From: Stutzerimonas azotifigens | GTDB lineage: Bacteria; Pseudomonadota; Gammaproteobacteria; Pseudomonadales; Pseudomonadaceae | Direction of reading: 5' to 3' | Assembly: GCF_013522725.1 (NCBI RefSeq) | Contig: NZ_JAAMRF010000002.1 | Location: 496,001 to 560,000 of the forward strand | Length of the DNA stretch: 64,000 nt | Position numbers and translations under genes: made by a program | In this document: positions 34,618 through 53,506 of the stretch, in pieces | Numbering within the stretch: position 1 is the stretch's first letter | How the letters are laid out: the number at the start of each line of letters is the position of its first letter | Notes under the pieces: model-generated | What the model was told of the DNA's origin: nothing | The model's database searches: none | Seen by the model: only the letters and a program-made list of their open reading frames with translations

Positions 34618-35589
34618 ATGGCCGTTCAAGACCTGCTCTCACAAGACGAAATCGACGCGCTCCTGCACGGGGTCGATGACGGTCTGGTCGAGACCGAAAA
34701 CGATGCCGAGCCGGGGAGCATCAAGAGCTACGACCTGACCAGCCAGGATCGCATCGTCCGTGGACGCATGCCGACGCTGGAAATGATCAACGAACGTTTC
34801 GCCCGTTACACCCGCATCAGCATGTTCAACCTGTTGCGGCGCTCGGCCGATGTATCGGTCGGCGGTGTGCAGGTGATGAAGTTCGGCGAGTACGTGCATT
34901 CGCTCTACGTGCCGACCAGCCTGAATCTGGTGAAGATGAAGCCGATGCGCGGCACGGCGTTGTTCATCCTCGACGCCAAACTGGTGTTCAAGCTGGTGGA
35001 CAACTTTTTCGGTGGAGACGGCCGCCATGCCAAGATCGAAGGTCGTGAGTTCACCCCCACGGAGCTACGCGTCGTGCGCATGGTGCTGGACCAGGCCTTC
35101 GTCGATCTGAAAGAAGCCTGGCATGCGGTAATGGACGTCAACTTCGAATACATCAACTCCGAAGTGAACCCGGCGCTCGCCAATATCGTCAGCCCCAGCG
35201 AAGTGGTGGTGGTCTCCACCTTCCATATTGAGCTGGACGGCGGCGGCGGCGATCTGCATATCACCATTCCCTATTCGATGATCGAGCCGATCCGCGAAAT
35301 GCTCGACGCCGGCTTCCAGTCCGATGTCGACGATCAGGACGAGCGCTGGATCAAGGCGCTGCGCGAGGACATCCTCGACGTCAGCGTGCCGCTCGGGGCC
35401 ACGGTCGTGCGCCGCCAGCTCAAGCTTCGCGACATCCTGAACATGCAGCCGGGCGACATCATTCCGGTTGAAGTACCTGAAGACATGATCATGCGTGCCA
35501 ATGGGATGCCGGCTTTCCGGGTCAAGCTCGGCGCGCACAAGGGCAACCTGGCCCTGCAGGTGCTGGCGCCAGTGGAACGGCCACGCTAA
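34618..35589 (+). CDS. fliM: Flagellar motor switch protein FliM
   Basis: The C-ring protein that binds phospho-CheY. The 323 residues equal the known Pseudomonas length. The extreme N-terminus MAVQDLLSQDEIDALLHG carries the conserved CheY-binding helix. The middle domain (TLEMINERFARYTRISMFNLLRRSADVSVGGVQVMKF) and the C-terminal SpoA-like domain follow. A start three codons upstream at a TTG is less likely. It lies between fliL and fliN. Confidence 0.95.
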   Translation: MAVQDLLSQDEIDALLHGVDDGLVETENDAEPGSIKSYDLTSQDRIVRGRMPTLEMINERFARYTRISMFNLLRRSADVSVGGVQVMKFGEYVHSLYVPTSLNLVKMKPMRGTALFILDAKLVFKLVDNFFGGDGRHAKIEGREFTPTELRVVRMVLDQAFVDLKEAWHAVMDVNFEYINSEVNPALANIVSPSEVVVVSTFHIELDGGGGDLHITIPYSMIEPIREMLDAGFQSDVDDQDERWIKALREDILDVSVPLGATVVRRQLKLRDILNMQPGDIIPVEVPEDMIMRANGMPAFRVKLGAHKGNLALQVLAPVERPR

Positions 35590-35633: not shown

Positions 35634-36110
35634 ATGGCAGACGAGAACGAACAGTCCCCTGAAGAGCAGGCGCTTGCCGACGAATGGGCGGCCGCGCTGG
35701 CCGAGGCCGGCGATGCCAGTCAGGACGACATCGATGCGCTGATGAACGGGGGCGCTGCCGCGGCTACTGCTGCTGCTCCGGCAGCACCGCGCGCGCCGAT
35801 GGAAGAGTTTGGCGGAATGCCAAAGCCCAGCGGACAGGTGAGCCTGGATGGACCGAACCTGGATGTGATTCTGGATATCCCGGTGTCGATCTCGATGGAA
35901 GTCGGCAGTACCGAAATCAGCATCCGCAACCTGCTGCAGCTCAACCAGGGTTCGGTGGTGGAGCTGGACCGTCTGGCGGGCGAGCCGCTCGACGTTCTGG
36001 TCAACGGAACCCTGATCGCCCATGGCGAAGTGGTGGTGGTCAACGAGAAGTTCGGCATCCGCCTGACCGACGTGATCAGCCCCAGCGAACGCATCAAGAA
36101 GCTGCGCTGA
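35634..36110 (+). CDS. fliN: Flagellar motor switch protein FliN
   Basis: C-ring protein with the SpoA (FliMN_C) domain, 158 residues. The C-terminal half (LDVILDIPVSISMEVGSTEISIRNLLQLNQGSVVELDRLAGEPLDVLVNG) is the FliN core. The N-terminal part, longer than in E. coli, has an acidic segment with SQDDIDALMNGG, a FliM-like helix motif. An alanine-rich linker follows. fliO starts one base after the stop. Confidence 0.95.
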   Translation: MADENEQSPEEQALADEWAAALAEAGDASQDDIDALMNGGAAAATAAAPAAPRAPMEEFGGMPKPSGQVSLDGPNLDVILDIPVSISMEVGSTEISIRNLLQLNQGSVVELDRLAGEPLDVLVNGTLIAHGEVVVVNEKFGIRLTDVISPSERIKKLR

Positions 36111-39634: not shown

Positions 39635-40156
39635 TTATTCAATCACCCCGCAGGCGACGCGGGCTCCGCCACCACCAAGCGGCTCGGGATGGTCGGAGTG
39701 GTTGTCGCCGCCCTTGTGGACCATCAGCGCGAGGCCCTTGAGATCGCCCAGGCTCTTGAGTCGCGGTGCCTGCACGGGTTGGCTAGCAGTACCGTCGCTC
39801 TCGACCGTCAGGCCCGGCAAATCGCCCATGTGGCCGTCGCCCCAGGGCTCGCCGTGCTTGCCGGTGTTCTGGGGATCCCAATGGCCGCCCGCAGCTCCGG
39901 CCGGTACCGTTTTGCCATCTTGTTCTGCGGTGCCGCAATTGCCCTTGGCATGAACGTGAAAGCCATGAATACCGGGCTCAAGCCCTTTTAGTTCGGGGCG
40001 GAACACCAGGCCGTATTCGTTGCTTTCGATCTTTACCGTGCCGACCGATTGGCCGACGCCTTCCTGGTTGACCATGTTCATCGGGACCGAGAGCGTTTCG
40101 GCGTGCAGGCCCGCGGCCGTGCAACTGGCCAGCGCGGCGATTATCCATTGCTTCAT
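39635..40156 (-). CDS. sodC: Periplasmic Cu,Zn superoxide dismutase
   Basis: A 173-residue exported enzyme that converts superoxide to oxygen and hydrogen peroxide in the periplasm. The signal peptide is [19 protein letters not shown]. The metal ligands are all seen: [35 protein letters not shown] and [25 protein letters not shown]. The two cysteines for the conserved disulfide are present. It stands alone on the minus strand between flhB and flhA. The ATG after TCTCC/GGAGA-type sequence (GGAGACGAG on its strand) was chosen over longer frames. Confidence 0.93.
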
Positions 40157-40296
40157 GTCTCGTCTCCTGTGCGAAGGGGGAAGGGTGGCGTGGCCACCGT
40201 TGAGTTCTGACTGCGACATGGCAGTCAGGTTCGCCCTTGGGCTCCACGCCCCGGCCCCGCAGGGTGGGCGCGAGTTTCGCGCCAGCCCAAAAAAGT

Positions 40297-40312
40297 TGGA
40301 CCCCTTCTTGCT
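40297..40312 (+). promoter_or_regulatory. Sigma-54 promoter of flhA
   Basis: TGGACC-N5-TTGCT keeps the essential GG at -24 and GC at -12, with a variant TGGACC in place of TGGCAC. It lies 57 bases before the flhA GTG. In P. aeruginosa flhA and its followers form an RpoN and FleQ controlled unit. Confidence 0.78.
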
Positions 40313-40368
40313 ATAGCTCATGCGAGACGCAGATAGCGTCAAAAGATTGTTATGCCGGTGGGGGCTCC

Positions 40369-45491: not shown

Positions 45492-45518
45492 GGCATTTTG
45501 AGACTTACGGAGGTCGAC

Positions 45519-45905
45519 TTGGACAAGAACATGAAAATCCTCATCGTCGATGATTTCTCGACGATGAGACGGATCATCAAGAACCTCTTGCGTGATCTTG
45601 GCTTCACCAATACTGCCGAAGCGGATGACGGCACCACTGCGCTGCCAATGCTGCAGAGCGGTAGTTTCGATTTCCTCGTGACCGACTGGAACATGCCTGG
45701 CATGACCGGTATCGACTTGCTGCGCGCCGTGCGCGCCGATGATCGCCTCAAGCACCTGCCCGTGCTGATGGTGACCGCCGAAGCCAAGCGTGACCAGATC
45801 ATCGAGGCGGCCCAGGCCGGCGTGAACGGTTATGTGGTCAAGCCGTTCACGGCCCAGGTATTGAAAGAAAAGATCGAGAAGATCTTCGAGCGGGTTAACG
45901 GCTGA
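45519..45905 (+). CDS. cheY: Chemotaxis response regulator CheY
   Basis: Single receiver domain that carries phosphate from CheA to the motor (FliM). The acceptor aspartate is D56 in LVTDWNMPG; the conserved lysine is in VVKPF. Two starts are possible. The TTG at 45519 has GGAGG five bases upstream and gives a 128-residue protein with the N-terminus [12 protein letters not shown], close to E. coli CheY in length. The ATG at 45531 gives the 124-residue form often annotated in Pseudomonas, but its nearest ribosome site is too far away. I favour the TTG. Confidence 0.92.
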
Positions 45906-45924: not shown

Positions 45925-46713
45925 ATGGCGCATATCGATTCACAACCAGGTGACCTCGAGTCGACCCTGAAAAACCATGCCCGCGAGCTGACGGAACACC
46001 TGGAAAAAGGCCAGTTCAGCGATGCGGCGCAATTGATTCACGCAATGGCGCAGGTTCACGACAACGGCCTGTACCGTGAGGTCGGCAAGCTGACCCGCGA
46101 ACTGCACACCGCCATCGTCAATCTCCAGATCGACCCCCGGACTCCGCACGCGACGGAGGTATCGCAGATTTCCGATGCCACCGAGCGGCTTTCGTACGTC
46201 GTCCAGATGACCGAACGCGCCGCCAACCGGACCATGGATCTGGTGGAGGAGTGCGCGCCGCTGGTCAACGATCTGAACGACGAGGCCAAGTTGCTCAGTG
46301 TCGAATGGGGCAAGCTGCTGCGCCGCGAGATTGGCCTGGAATCGTTCCGTGAGCTGGCCAAGCGCATCGAACTTTACTTGGCACGCAGCGAGCGCGACAC
46401 GCAAAAGCTGTCCTCTCACCTGAACGACATCATGCTGGCGCAGGACTATCAGGACCTGACTGGGCAGGTGATCAAGCGCGTTACTCAACTGGTGACCGAA
46501 GTCGAGGGGAACCTGGTCAAGCTGGTGCTCATGGCCAGCCAGGTCGACCGCTTCACCAACGTGACGCATGACCATGAACAGATCAAAAAAGAGCAAGAAC
46601 TACAAAAAGGTCCTTCCAAAGGTGAAGGTCCGCAGATTCATGCCGATAAGCGTGAAGACGTCGTATCCGGACAGGACGATGTCGACGATCTGCTTTCCAG
46701 TCTTGGTTTCTAG
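45925..46713 (+). CDS. cheZ: Protein phosphatase CheZ
   Basis: Removes phosphate from CheY-P. The 262-residue four-helix bundle contains DIMLAQDYQDLTGQVIKRV, which holds the catalytic Asp and Gln pair of the family. The C-terminus GQDDVDDLLSSLGF is the CheY-binding tail, similar to the ends in E. coli CheZ. It lies 19 bases after cheY. cheA begins 12 bases after its stop. The gene order cheY-cheZ-cheA-cheB is that of Pseudomonas. Confidence 0.94.
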   Translation: MAHIDSQPGDLESTLKNHARELTEHLEKGQFSDAAQLIHAMAQVHDNGLYREVGKLTRELHTAIVNLQIDPRTPHATEVSQISDATERLSYVVQMTERAANRTMDLVEECAPLVNDLNDEAKLLSVEWGKLLRREIGLESFRELAKRIELYLARSERDTQKLSSHLNDIMLAQDYQDLTGQVIKRVTQLVTEVEGNLVKLVLMASQVDRFTNVTHDHEQIKKEQELQKGPSKGEGPQIHADKREDVVSGQDDVDDLLSSLGF

Positions 46714-46725
46714 GGGTATGCCAAT

Positions 46726-48930
46726 ATGAGCTTCGACGCCGATGAAGAAATCCTCCAGGATTTCCTAGTTGAGGCTGGCGAGATTCTTGAGTTGTTATCC
46801 GAACAGTTGGTCGAGCTGGAAAGCAGCCCTGACGATACGGCACTGCTCAATGCCATTTTTCGCGGTTTCCATACGGTTAAGGGCGGCGCCGGTTTCCTCC
46901 AGCTGAACGAGCTGGTCGAGTGCTGCCACATCGCCGAGAACGTGTTCGACATCTTGCGCAAGGGCGAACGACGCGTCGATTCGGAGTTGATGGACGTCGT
47001 GCTTCAGGCACTCGACGCCGTCAACGAGATGTTCGGCCAGGTCCGCGAGCGGACCGACATGACGCCTGCCTCGCCCGAGCTGCTCGCAGCCCTTGCACGG
47101 CTGGCCGAGCCGGCTTCCGCCGCGGCACCTGTTGCGGCAGCACCGGCGCCGGTCGTCGCTGCTCCGGTGGCCGCCCCACGGCCCGCTTCCGGTGACATCA
47201 CCGAAGAAGAATTCGAGCAGATGCTCGACTCTCTGGGCCAACCGGACACTGCTACCGAGCCGTCCGCCGCGGGAGCGGCTTCGGACGAAATCAGCGACGA
47301 CGAATTCGAATCGTTGCTCGATCAGTTGCACGGCAAAGGTCAGTTTTCCACAGCGCCGGCGGCCCAAGCGCCAGCGGCCGCTCCGTCGGCCAATGCCGCG
47401 GCAGGCGATGAAATCAGCGACGACGAATTCGAGGCCCTGCTTGATCAGCTGCACGGCAAGGGCAAGTTCGAGCCGGCCGTGGCCGCTGCCGAAGATAAGC
47501 CCGCCGCACCGGCACCGGCACCGGTGGCGGCCTCGGGCGATGAAATTACTGATGACGAATTCGAAGCCCTGCTCGATCAGCTGCATGGCAAGGGCAAGTT
47601 CGTCGAGCCCGTTGCAGCGTCCAGCGCGCCAGTTGCTGCGCCAAAGCCCGCCGCTGCTCCTGCCCCGGTAGCTGCCGCGCCGGTCAAGGCTGCGGCCGCT
47701 GCTGCCGAAGCGCCCAAGCGCGCCGCGGCTGCAACAGCCGAGAAGCCGGCTGCGGCCAGCGAGGCGGAGACAACCGTTCGGGTCGACACGGCGCGCCTCG
47801 ACGAGATCATGAACATGGTCGGCGAGCTGGTGCTTGTGCGTAACCGTCTGGTGCGCCTGGGTTCCAACAGCGGCGACGAGGCGATGTCCAAGGCCGTGTC
47901 GAACCTGGATGTTGTGACCGCCGATCTGCAGACCGCGGTCATGAAGACCCGCATGCAGCCGATCAAGAAGGTCTTCGGACGCTTCCCCCGGCTGGTTCGC
48001 GACCTGGCGCGCAACCTGAAGAAAGAAATCAATCTGGAGCTGGTCGGTGAAGAAACCGACCTGGACAAGAACCTCGTCGAGGCGCTGGCCGATCCGCTGG
48101 TGCACTTGGTGCGCAACGCGGTCGACCATGGCATCGAGTCGCCGGATGAGCGCGAGGCCGCCGGCAAGCCGCGCACCGGTCGAGTGGTGTTGTCCGCCGA
48201 GCAGGAGGGTGACCACATCCTGCTGATGATCACCGATGACGGCAAAGGGATGGACGCCGCGGTCTTGCGTGCCAAAGCGGTCGAAAAAGGCCTGTTGGAC
48301 AAGGATGCTGCCGATCGTCTGAGCGAGCTGGAGTGCTACAACCTGATTTTCGCGCCTGGCTTCTCGACCAAGACCGAAATCTCCGACGTCTCCGGGCGCG
48401 GCGTGGGCATGGACGTGGTCAAGACGAAGATTTCCCAGCTCAACGGCACGGTCAACGTGTTCTCCACCAAGGGCAGCGGATCGAAGATCGTGATCAAGGT
48501 CCCGCTGACACTGGCGATCATGCCGACCTTGATGGTGATGCTGGGCGAACAGGCCTTCGCCTTCCCGCTGGTCAACGTCAACGAGATCTTCCACCTCGAC
48601 CTGTCGCGCACCAACGTGGTGGACGGCCAGGAAGTGGTCATCGTCCGCGACAAGGCTCTGCCCCTGTTCTACCTCAAGCGCTGGCTGGTCCGGGGCGCCG
48701 CCCACGAAGAGCAGCACGAAGGGCACGTGGTGATCCTCAGCATTGGCAACCAGCGCATCGGCTTTGTCGTCGATCAGTTGGTCGGCCAGGAAGAAGTGGT
48801 CATCAAGCCGCTGGGCAAGATGCTGCAGGGCACGCCCGGCATGTCTGGCGCGACTATCACCGGCGACGGACGCATCGCTTTGATCCTCGACGTGCCGAGC
48901 ATGCTCAAGCGTTACGCGCGCAAGATCTGA
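46726..48930 (+). CDS. cheA: Chemotaxis histidine kinase CheA
   Basis: Core kinase of the chemosensory array, 734 residues. P1: phospho-acceptor histidine H49 in [15 protein letters not shown]. Residues about 125-345 form an alanine and proline-rich linker that replaces a recognisable P2 domain and carries four copies of an acidic [13 protein letters not shown]-type motif (157-172, 188-207, 229-248, 273-292). P3 dimer domain: [20 protein letters not shown]4 ATPase: [12 protein letters not shown] and DDGKGMD. P5: the CheW-like regulatory domain. It is the main flagellar CheA. Confidence 0.93.
47194..47601 (+). repeat. Fourfold peptide repeat in CheA linker
   Basis: Four in-frame copies of the motif (D/E)I(T/S)(D/E)(D/E)EFExxLD(Q/S)L start at 47194, 47287, 47410 and 47542. 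The last three are nearly identical and also share HGKG(Q/K)F. The spacing is 31, 41 and 44 codons, with alanine and proline-rich spacers between. The copies differ at synonymous positions, which suggests selection on the peptide and not recent duplication. Confidence 0.9.
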
Positions 48931-48977: not shown

Positions 48978-50072
48978 ATGGCAGTCAAGGTCCTGGTGGT
49001 AGACGATTCCGGCTTTTTCCGCCGGCGCGTCTCCGAGATCCTCTCATCCGATAAAAATATCCAGGTTGTTGGCACCGCGACCAATGGTCGTGAAGCCATC
49101 GATCAGGCGCTGGCGCTCAAGCCGGACGTCATCACCATGGACTACGAGATGCCGATGATGGACGGCATCACGGCGGTTCGGCAGATCATGCAACGCTGCC
49201 CGACGCCGGTCCTGATGTTTTCCTCGCTTACCCACGAAGGGGCCCGAGTCACTCTCGATGCGCTCGACGCCGGTGCGGTCGATTATCTGCCGAAGAATTT
49301 CGAGGACATCTCGCGCAACCCCGAGAAGGTCAAACAGATGCTCTGCGAGAAGGTCCATACCATCGCGCGGAGTAATCGACACTACGGCAGTTTCTTGAGC
49401 ACTGCTGCTTCGGCAACGACTTCCACCGCAGCCCCGGCTTCGCGCTCCGCTGCCGCTCCGGCGCCGCGGCCGAACGCCACGCCAACGACCAGCGCGGCGC
49501 CCAAGCGCAAGAACTACAAGCTCGTTGCCATTGGCACGTCCACCGGCGGCCCGGTCGCGCTGCAGCGCGTTCTGACGCAGCTGCCGGCCGGCTTTCCGAC
49601 GCCGATCGTGCTGATCCAGCACATGCCTGCGGCCTTCACCAAGGCTTTTGCCGAGCGCTTGGACAAGCTCTGCCGGATCAACGTCAAGGAGGCCGAGGAC
49701 GGCGATCTGCTACGTCCCGGCCTGGCGCTGCTGGCGCCAGGCGGCAAGCAGATGATGATCGACGGGCGCGGATCGGTACGCATCCTGCCCGGCGACGAAC
49801 GCCTGAATTACAAACCCTGTGTCGACATCACTTTCGGCTCGGCCGCCAAGTCGTTCAATGACAAGGTGCTGGCCGTCGTGCTGACCGGCATGGGCGCCGA
49901 CGGCCGTGAAGGCGCGCGCCTGCTCAAGCAGTGCGGAAGCCAGGTCTGGGCTCAGGACGAGGCCAGTTGCGTGATTTACGGAATGCCGATGGCGATCGTC
50001 AAGGCCAATCTCAGCGACGCCATCTACAGCCTCGACGACATCGGCCGTCACATCGCCGAGGCATGCAGCTAG
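48978..50072 (+). CDS. cheB: Chemotaxis methylesterase CheB
   Basis: Receiver plus methylesterase/deamidase that adapts chemoreceptors by removing methyl groups. The 364-residue product has D55 in [13 protein letters not shown] as phospho-acceptor. After a Ser/Thr/Ala/Pro-rich linker, the esterase domain shows the catalytic Ser, His and Asp in [21 protein letters not shown] and [14 protein letters not shown]. The ATG has AGGAG seven bases upstream; an in-frame upstream extension would fall in cheA. motC starts inside the stop codon region. Confidence 0.94.
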
Positions 50073-51742: not shown

Positions 51743-52531
51743 ATGAGAGTCTGGGCTGTAGCCAATCAAAAAGGTGGGGTAGGCAAGACCACCACCTCTG
51801 TCGCGCTGGCAGGCTTGCTGGCCGACGCGGGCAAGCGCGTGGTCGTGGTCGATCTGGATCCACATGGGTCGATGACCAGCTATTTCGGCCAAGACCCCGA
51901 TAGCCTCGAGCACAGCGTCTTCGAGCTGTTCCAGCATCAAGGCAGCGTGCCGGAGGGTTTGCCGCGCCAGCTGCTACTGCCGACCAGCCACGAGCGCATT
52001 TCCCTGCTGCCATCCAGCACCGTGCTGGCGACGCTCGAGCGGCAATCGCCGGGCCAGAATGGCCTTGGGTTGGTGGTTGCCAAAAGTCTGACACAGCTCT
52101 GGCAAGACTATGATCACGCGATCATCGACAGCCCGCCGCTACTCGGCGTGCTGATGGTCAATGCCCTGGCGGCCAGCCAACAGCTGGTGATACCCGTGCA
52201 GACGGAGTTTCTGGCAGTGAAAGGACTCGAGCGGATGGTCAGCACGCTGGCGATGATCAACCGTTCACGCAAGCAGGCGTTGCCATACACCATCGTGCCG
52301 ACGTTGTTCGATCGGCGTACCCAGGCGTCGATGAACACGCTCAAGGTGCTGCGTCAGGGTTATGAGGCGAACCTATGGCAGGCGTTCATCCCGGTCGATA
52401 CCCGTCTGCGCGATGCGAGCCGTGCGGGTCTGGTGCCATCACAGTTCGATTCGGGTAGCCGCGCGGTGATTGCCTATCGTGCGCTGCTCAAGCATTTGCT
52501 GGCCTACCAGGCTACCCCACAGGTAGCCTGA
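51743..52531 (+). CDS. parC: ParA-like ATPase of the chemotaxis cluster (ParC)
   Basis: A 262-residue ParA/MinD-family ATPase with deviant Walker A QKGGVGKTTTSVAL and VDLDPHGSMTSYFG. In Vibrio and Pseudomonas the equivalent ParC places chemotaxis arrays at the cell pole. It lies 90 bases after motD, 87 bases before the ParP-like gene. It is a chromosome-borne cluster gene, not a plasmid partition gene, since no parB is next to it. The name rests on synteny. Confidence 0.85.
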   Translation: MRVWAVANQKGGVGKTTTSVALAGLLADAGKRVVVVDLDPHGSMTSYFGQDPDSLEHSVFELFQHQGSVPEGLPRQLLLPTSHERISLLPSSTVLATLERQSPGQNGLGLVVAKSLTQLWQDYDHAIIDSPPLLGVLMVNALAASQQLVIPVQTEFLAVKGLERMVSTLAMINRSRKQALPYTIVPTLFDRRTQASMNTLKVLRQGYEANLWQAFIPVDTRLRDASRAGLVPSQFDSGSRAVIAYRALLKHLLAYQATPQVA

Positions 52532-52618
52532 GATGTACGCAACTAATTGCGGTCGGGGCTCAAGTCCGCGGCGATGCCAGCCGATAGCCTGTTCAGATAT
52601 TTCCTACGAGTGCGTTTC

Positions 52619-53506
52619 ATGAGTCGCTCTGTTCTCGCCGCAACCCGCCCTCAGCTGGCTCTCCAGTCCTATCTCGACGCGCTGCTTCAGGATGCGGCGA
52701 TCGAGCTGGCCGACTCGGTCACGCTCGACGAGTTTCAGGCTGCCGTGCTCGAAGAGCAGCAGCGCGACGCGGTGCCGAAGGTGCCCGTGGTCGCATCGCC
52801 TGCGGTGGCCCCGGCACCTGTTGCGGCAGTGCCGGCTGCGCCTGTGCTTGTCGCGCCGGGTGCGGAAAGGCCTGTGCTGGTTCCGCCGGTACCTGCGGTC
52901 GTGCCCGCTGTTGCGCCTGTACTGGACATCGGTTCGCCTGTGGTCGAGCTGGTGCCGAAGAGCGAGCCGCCGCTGACACCGCCATTGCAGTTCGATGGAC
53001 AGCCTGCGTGGGGTGAAGAGCCGTTCGAGTGCCTGCTGTTCGATGTCGCGGGGCTGACATTGGCCGTCCCGCTGGTCAGTCTGGGCTCGATTTATCCGTT
53101 GGCAGGACAGGAGCTGACGCCGTTGTTTGGTCAGCCCGACTGGTTTCTCGGAATCCTGCCGTGCCAGGCGGGCAATCTCAAGGTGCTCGATGCGGCGCGC
53201 TGGGTAATGCCGGACCGCTACCGTGACGATTTCCGCGAGGGCCTGCAGTATGTGATTTCGGTAGAGGGTTACGAGTGGGGTTTGGCGGTGCATCAGGTCA
53301 GCCGTTCGATCCGGCTCGATCCGCGGCAAGTCAAATGGCGTTCCCAGCGCAGCCAGCGTCCCTGGCTCGCTGGAACGGTGATCGAACACATGTGCGCACT
53401 GCTCGATGTGGCCGCGCTGGCCGAGTTGATCGCAAGCGGTGCGGCCAAGCGCGCCGAGCATGAGCAAGCGTCGGCGGCGAAGCCAGCAGGGCGCAAGCGA
53501 AACTGA
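52619..53506 (+). CDS. parP: CheW-like protein ParP
   Basis: A 295-residue protein with an N-terminal segment RPQLALQSYLDALLQDA, a proline, valine and alanine-rich linker (about 55-130) and a C-terminal CheW-like domain (FECLLFDVAGLTLAVPLVSLGSI, DWFLGILPCQAGNLKVLDAARWV). In Vibrio ParP links ParC to CheA and helps array inheritance. The ATG giving MSRSVLAATRPQ was chosen. cheW follows 72 bases later. The gene order parC-parP-cheW supports the name. Confidence 0.85.
   Translation: MSRSVLAATRPQLALQSYLDALLQDAAIELADSVTLDEFQAAVLEEQQRDAVPKVPVVASPAVAPAPVAAVPAAPVLVAPGAERPVLVPPVPAVVPAVAPVLDIGSPVVELVPKSEPPLTPPLQFDGQPAWGEEPFECLLFDVAGLTLAVPLVSLGSIYPLAGQELTPLFGQPDWFLGILPCQAGNLKVLDAARWVMPDRYRDDFREGLQYVISVEGYEWGLAVHQVSRSIRLDPRQVKWRSQRSQRPWLAGTVIEHMCALLDVAALAELIASGAAKRAEHEQASAAKPAGRKRN

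Follow-up and report, generated by a model that had tools for sequence, protein, structure and literature searches.

The CheA kinases of E. coli and T. maritima dock CheY and CheB through a dedicated domain, P2. A CheA from Stutzerimonas azotifigens in which no P2 can be recognized raises the question of how such a kinase passes phosphate to CheY efficiently. The gene lies in a flagellar and chemotaxis cluster in the window, i.e., the whole 64,000-nucleotide stretch of DNA that was analyzed. Gene order in the cluster is cheY-cheZ-cheA-cheB, with parC-parP-cheW downstream, and is that of a polar-flagellum (F6-type) system. The genes relevant to this analysis are as follows:

34618-35589 (+): fliM; N-terminal CheY-binding peptide LSQDEIDALLHG at about 34636-34671
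35634-36110 (+): polar fliN; peptide SQDDIDALMNGG near the N-terminus, at about 35718-35753
45498-45905 (+): cheY, the proposed ligand; first in-frame start TTG at 45498, likely start ATG at 45531
45925-46713 (+): cheZ; C-terminal CheY-binding peptide QDDVDDLLSSLGF at about 46672-46710, in a tail that is near-invariant in relatives
46726-48930 (+): cheA, encoding 734 amino acids (open reading frame, translation, Pfam and AlphaFold)
48978-50072 (+): cheB, whose product is a possible second ligand
51743-52531 (+): parC, a ParA-like polar anchor
52574-53506 (+): parP, CheW-like with a Pro-rich N-terminus; its product is an alternative ligand of the CheA linker

The CheY encoded here matches a solved CheY homologue at 223 bits and the 2che/2fka CheY chains at 171 bits. 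Its C-terminal part, which includes the surface where the peptides of FliM and CheZ bind (1F4V, 1KMI), is well conserved with respect to solved CheYs. The window also holds a superoxide-dismutase-like gene on the opposite strand (39635-40342, -), situated between flhB and flhA and apparently of the Cu/Zn type.

Domain layout of CheA

Pfam identifies the protein as a histidine kinase with Hpt, H-kinase_dim, HATPase_c and CheW-like domains, in that order. An AlphaFold model built with 61 relatives agrees, and is confident for P1, P3, P4 and P5. The resulting layout, in amino acids, is:

8-100: P1 (Hpt), from Pfam and AlphaFold
about 128-345: disordered, motif-bearing linker between P1 and P3
349-408: P3
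456-595: P4
602-729: P5/CheW-like

The absence of a recognizable P2 had been noted from the sequence, and this was borne out. A Pfam scan of all 734 residues gave no P2 or other CheY-binding domain, and the AlphaFold model shows no folded domain in the P1-P3 region, so that the canonical five-domain CheA architecture is short of its P2. None of 105 linkers from relatives matched P2 in Pfam either, a count to be read with the insensitivity of these models, which also missed a non-F6 CheA (L139) whose linker apparently holds a P2. Pfam alone has been described as insensitive for P2 in a survey of CheA architectures, which reports that >50% of CheAs are without P2 and are unstructured between P1 and P3 (PMC10782961), as is the Stutzerimonas protein.

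A repeated motif in the linker

The linker contains four copies of the motif (D/E)(D/E)I(S/T)(D/E)(D/E)EF(E/D)xLLDxLHGxGK, spread over positions 47197-47592 and separated by Ala/Pro-rich spacers. They are listed below with their AlphaFold helices (in amino acids), their identity among congeneric proteins, and their scores with a profile of FliM peptides that is described further on:

47197-47244 (+): copy 1, degenerate; helix 160-169; conservation 46%; FliM-profile score 1.5
47290-47337 (+): copy 2; helix 191-201; conservation 92%; FliM-profile score 9.7
47413-47460 (+): copy 3; helix 232-242; conservation 93%; FliM-profile score 13.9
47545-47592 (+): copy 4, the best conserved; helix 276-287; conservation 99%; FliM-profile score 10.8

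Copies 2-4 are almost identical to one another. A profile of the motif recovers them from the whole genome with E-values of 2e-14 to 5e-14, and the degenerate copy 1 with 1e-8, so the repeats are not a product of chance. Translation and profile E-values thus bear out the four copies and the Ala/Pro-rich spacers as originally described. The four short helices modeled at the motifs have pLDDT values of about 67-78 (in ten-residue blocks), and the stretches between them fall below 50.

Conservation was measured in 30 congeneric CheAs, in which P1, P3, P4 and P5 are 93-98% identical to the window protein. It had been suggested that motif copies would be conserved and spacers variable. This is true of copies 2-4 (92-99% identity, versus 42% for the spacers, with gaps) but not of copy 1, which is degenerate and only 46% conserved.

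Across the Gammaproteobacteria, 282 copies of the motif were found in 109 CheAs of this type, with one to four per protein. Most related gammaproteobacteria have a CheA of this kind, in which the motif is present and a P2 is not recognizable. The E-F and L-L positions are near-invariant in this collection, the leucines at F+3 and F+4 (counted from the Phe) being conserved in 84% and 97% of copies, respectively. Mean column identity of 105 linkers is only 21%, and the near-invariant linker columns lie within the motif. Hosts include Stutzerimonas, Pseudomonas, Marinobacter, Alteromonas, Shewanella, Vibrio, Photobacterium, Aeromonas, Colwellia, Allochromatium, Dyella and Stenotrophomonas, and all strong matches among 349 genomes of the phylum fall within the Gammaproteobacteria. 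Every strong match in the sets of 114 and 349 genomes was a CheA or a CheA fragment, and none of these natural proteins combined the motif with a receiver domain. The motif matched none of the PDB chains searched.

Two individual loci may be mentioned. One CheA (L323, from genome G033), with an open frame of 1073 amino acids, carries seven copies of the motif. In another locus (L093, genome G320), CheA, ParC and ParP are disrupted by stop codons or frame changes; all are intact in the relatives G103 and G220.

Resemblance to CheY-binding peptides

The tail of CheZ is a known CheY binder, and FliM begins with ...LLSQDEIDALLHG in the species compared. Peptides of this kind had been noted in FliM, CheZ and FliN of the window, and all three are present, but the one in polar FliN is not a general feature; in a comparison with FliN N-termini from 30 other genomes, it recurred only in a close relative (L213).

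Likeness of the CheA motif to these peptides was evaluated with a profile made from 27 FliM ten-mers only, which was run on 1,881,907 peptide windows (13,746 open frames around 120 cheA loci), 282 of them being copies of the CheA motif. A score of at least 10 was reached by 222 peptide windows, comprising 119 CheA motifs, 72 CheZ peptides, 2 FliM peptides and 29 others. In other words, a profile of FliM alone retrieves large numbers of peptides from two protein families, the CheZ tail and the CheA motif, where the 282 CheA copies count as one match because they belong to one homologous family. A helix of FlhA reaches a score of 7.4. The median of the true CheA motifs was attained in 2 of 5000 trials with column-permuted FliM profiles and by 58 of 14,100 letter-shuffled CheA motifs, and the motif fits the FliM profile in one register only. 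The resemblance first noted from the sequence is position-specific and far above background, and the motif matches FliM/CheZ-type CheY-binding peptides in the right register and better than chance. A profile made solely from the CheZ tail, which is near-invariant, was too restrictive to pick out the CheA motif.

The CheA motif and the FliM and CheZ peptides share a Hydrophobic-(D/E)-x-L-L core that follows S-x-x-(E/Q) in the same register. The CheA motif differs from those of FliM and CheZ in having Phe in place of Ile/Val, a longer helix with an LHGxGK tail, several copies, and a location on the kinase. The LHGxGK part has no counterpart in FliM or in the lateral FliN considered next.

A lateral FliN with a CheA-type peptide

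When the CheA-motif profile was run against the whole genome, it gave one further match below an E-value of 0.01 (0.006). The protein concerned belongs to the FliMN_C family, is 121 amino acids long, and begins with MNGDISDNEFESLLNEG. Its gene lies around 80427-80789 of another contig of the same genome (C33; locus L326:8925-10174, -), and adjoins a lateral FliM gene. Apparent secretion, FliF and FliG genes, recognized by eye, are nearby, and the cluster looks like a second flagellar cluster of the lateral type.

A lateral FliN is encoded in 69 of the 248 genomes from this family. In 29 of 30 lateral loci, its N-terminus reads L/I-(S/T)-(D/E)-N-(E/D)-F-(E/D)-x-L-(I/L), ahead of a variable Ala/Pro-rich stretch; the remaining locus was read from a wrong start. 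The lateral FliMs of the loci that were read are without the usual LSQDEIDALL CheY peptide. With a profile of lateral-FliN N-termini, just 1 of 1,794,179 background peptide windows reaches the median of the CheA motifs, and 52 reach that of FliM. Because lateral FliN N-termini keep the motif, a motor-switch protein carries a CheA-type peptide at the usual site of a CheY peptide. This suggests a possible way of coupling the lateral flagella of Pseudomonadaceae to chemotaxis. The lateral motor of Shewanella putrefaciens has been reported to be unresponsive to chemotaxis (PMC8203827), which weakens the argument unless the FliN of that species is without the motif.

Alternative roles of the motif

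The rival that fares best, at roughly one chance in five by our estimate and hence improbable, is that the CheA-LID is made up of the motifs, or of the final copy together with its LHGxGK tail. The LID is where ParP binds CheA, and via ParC it anchors arrays to the cell pole. In the Vibrio system, this region is reported to lie between P2 and P3 and to be restricted to CheAs with ParC/ParP (PMC7534058; PMC5706961). Linker and gene neighborhood are alike in the two systems: parC and parP share a cluster with cheA here and in most relatives. Moreover, the P1-P3 linker of two Vibrio species consists of three motif copies and spacers with no other obvious domain, so LID may include a motif. What speaks against this reading is that the motif is not confined to CheAs with ParC/ParP. 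Eight genomes (G192, G297, G010, G170, G022, G025, G172 and G154) have neither a ParC above the Soj-like background nor a ParP above the CheW-like background. Linkers could be read in seven of these, and six contain the motif (L071, L126, L096, L128, L132 and L068); the seventh (L135) has degenerate copies. The motif is also found on lateral FliN. Since it persists in genomes without ParC/ParP, it is not solely a ParP-binding LID, and LID as the only role was rejected.

A ParP-binding role could nevertheless exist beside CheY docking, and one copy could serve both ligands. The LHGxGK tail occurs in 84 of 87 CheAs with ParC versus 4 of 7 without, a hint, no more, that this tail may have a second role. 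Two loci of family f55 that are without ParC/ParP (L071 and L126) retain the core of the motif and have lost the tail.

A less probable alternative, to which we would give about one chance in ten, is that the peptides contact another domain of CheA (P1, P4 or the CheW layer), in cis or in trans, and so adjust the activity of the kinase instead of docking CheY. Helices that are acidic and amphipathic and sit in a flexible linker could make contacts of this kind, but these would leave the likeness to the N-termini of FliM and lateral FliN and to CheZ unexplained.

Least probable of all is that the motifs are SHOCT-like short helices serving oligomerization or another contact unrelated to CheY: Pfam SHOCT (PF09851) does match window CheA in four stretches and 87 of 105 linkers, but its score of 37.1 bits clears the cut-off of 27 by summing repeats over the whole protein, and only the second half of the model is matched (positions 11-25 of 28 in the best stretch). 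The two have an ITxEEF helix start in common, and the CheA profile gives a SHOCT-type consensus text a score of 16.9. With the FliM profile, the same text scores -0.7, and it has K-K at F+3/F+4, where CheA, FliM and CheZ have leucines. The half-length match and the different hydrophobic pattern led to this reading being judged unlikely.

Proposed CheY docking by the linker

The explanation that best accommodates these observations is that the CheA linker is a multivalent array of short docking peptides for CheY, and perhaps CheB, that replaces P2; we consider it likely, at about two chances in three. CheY binding by the motif is what we infer from its similarity to the peptides of the motor and phosphatase. 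CheAs of this type would have lost, or never had, a folded P2, and their P1-P3 linker would act as a disordered tether bearing one to four (rarely more) amphipathic helices of the form I(S/T)(D/E)(D/E)EF(E/D)xLLDxL. Each helix would hold CheY, and possibly CheB, with low affinity by the alpha4-beta5-alpha5 face, to which the peptides of FliM and CheZ bind. With several such weak sites on one flexible linker, the local concentration of unphosphorylated CheY near phospho-P1 may be raised. CheY-P would then be handed on from CheA to FliM and CheZ, presumably because both bind the phosphorylated form more tightly.

The proposed array is comparable to the P2 of E. coli and T. maritima CheA in its placement between P1 and P3 and in its putative job, that of concentrating CheY near P1. 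In contrast to P2, which is one folded domain, the Stutzerimonas linker presents repeated helices of about 16 residues in a disordered context. As the CheA peptides resemble those of the motor and of CheZ, the kinase, the phosphatase and the motor probably compete for CheY by means of a peptide code common to all three.

In one locus (L058), cheY and cheA lie in one frame, and no cheZ was found between them. An artificial read-through chain of CheY, P1 and linker from this locus, with stops replaced by Gly, was modeled with AlphaFold; the motif helices have pLDDT values of about 76-85, pLDDT being the one measure taken from the model.

Other lineages and significance

A term search of the text of the CheA architecture survey (PMC10782961) found no mention of a motif in the P1-P3 region, and the literature searched, subscription papers aside, contained no description of a CheA linker motif or of short linear motifs in CheA.

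Conserved elements are also seen in P2-less CheAs of other lineages. Those of Campylobacterota (L284, L293 and L298) have a linker helix of their own, (N/H)(M/L)SxxEVEAEIxRLL, which occurs twice in Sulfuricurvum. Betaproteobacterial linkers (L303, L311, L312, L313 and L315) contain DWxxL(H/Y)xx(V/L)(T/S), after which most have a GRR element. A broader proposal is that Gammaproteobacteria share one CheY peptide code, spanning the multivalent CheA array, the CheZ tail, the N-terminus of polar FliM and, with a CheA-type peptide shifted to FliN, the lateral motor, and that other P2-less lineages, such as Campylobacterota and Betaproteobacteria, evolved linker peptides of their own. This is conceivable, at somewhat below even odds; if it is true, linear motifs would have taken the place of a folded P2 on more than one occasion.

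More than half of CheAs have no P2, and a repeated, shared peptide would be a concrete and testable answer to how they pass phosphate to CheY efficiently. That answer would cover many gammaproteobacteria, including relatives of Pseudomonas, Vibrio, Shewanella and Aeromonas. If CheY docking by the motif is true, kinase and motor would compete for the same face of CheY, and the number of motif copies could tune the hold of the kinase on CheY.
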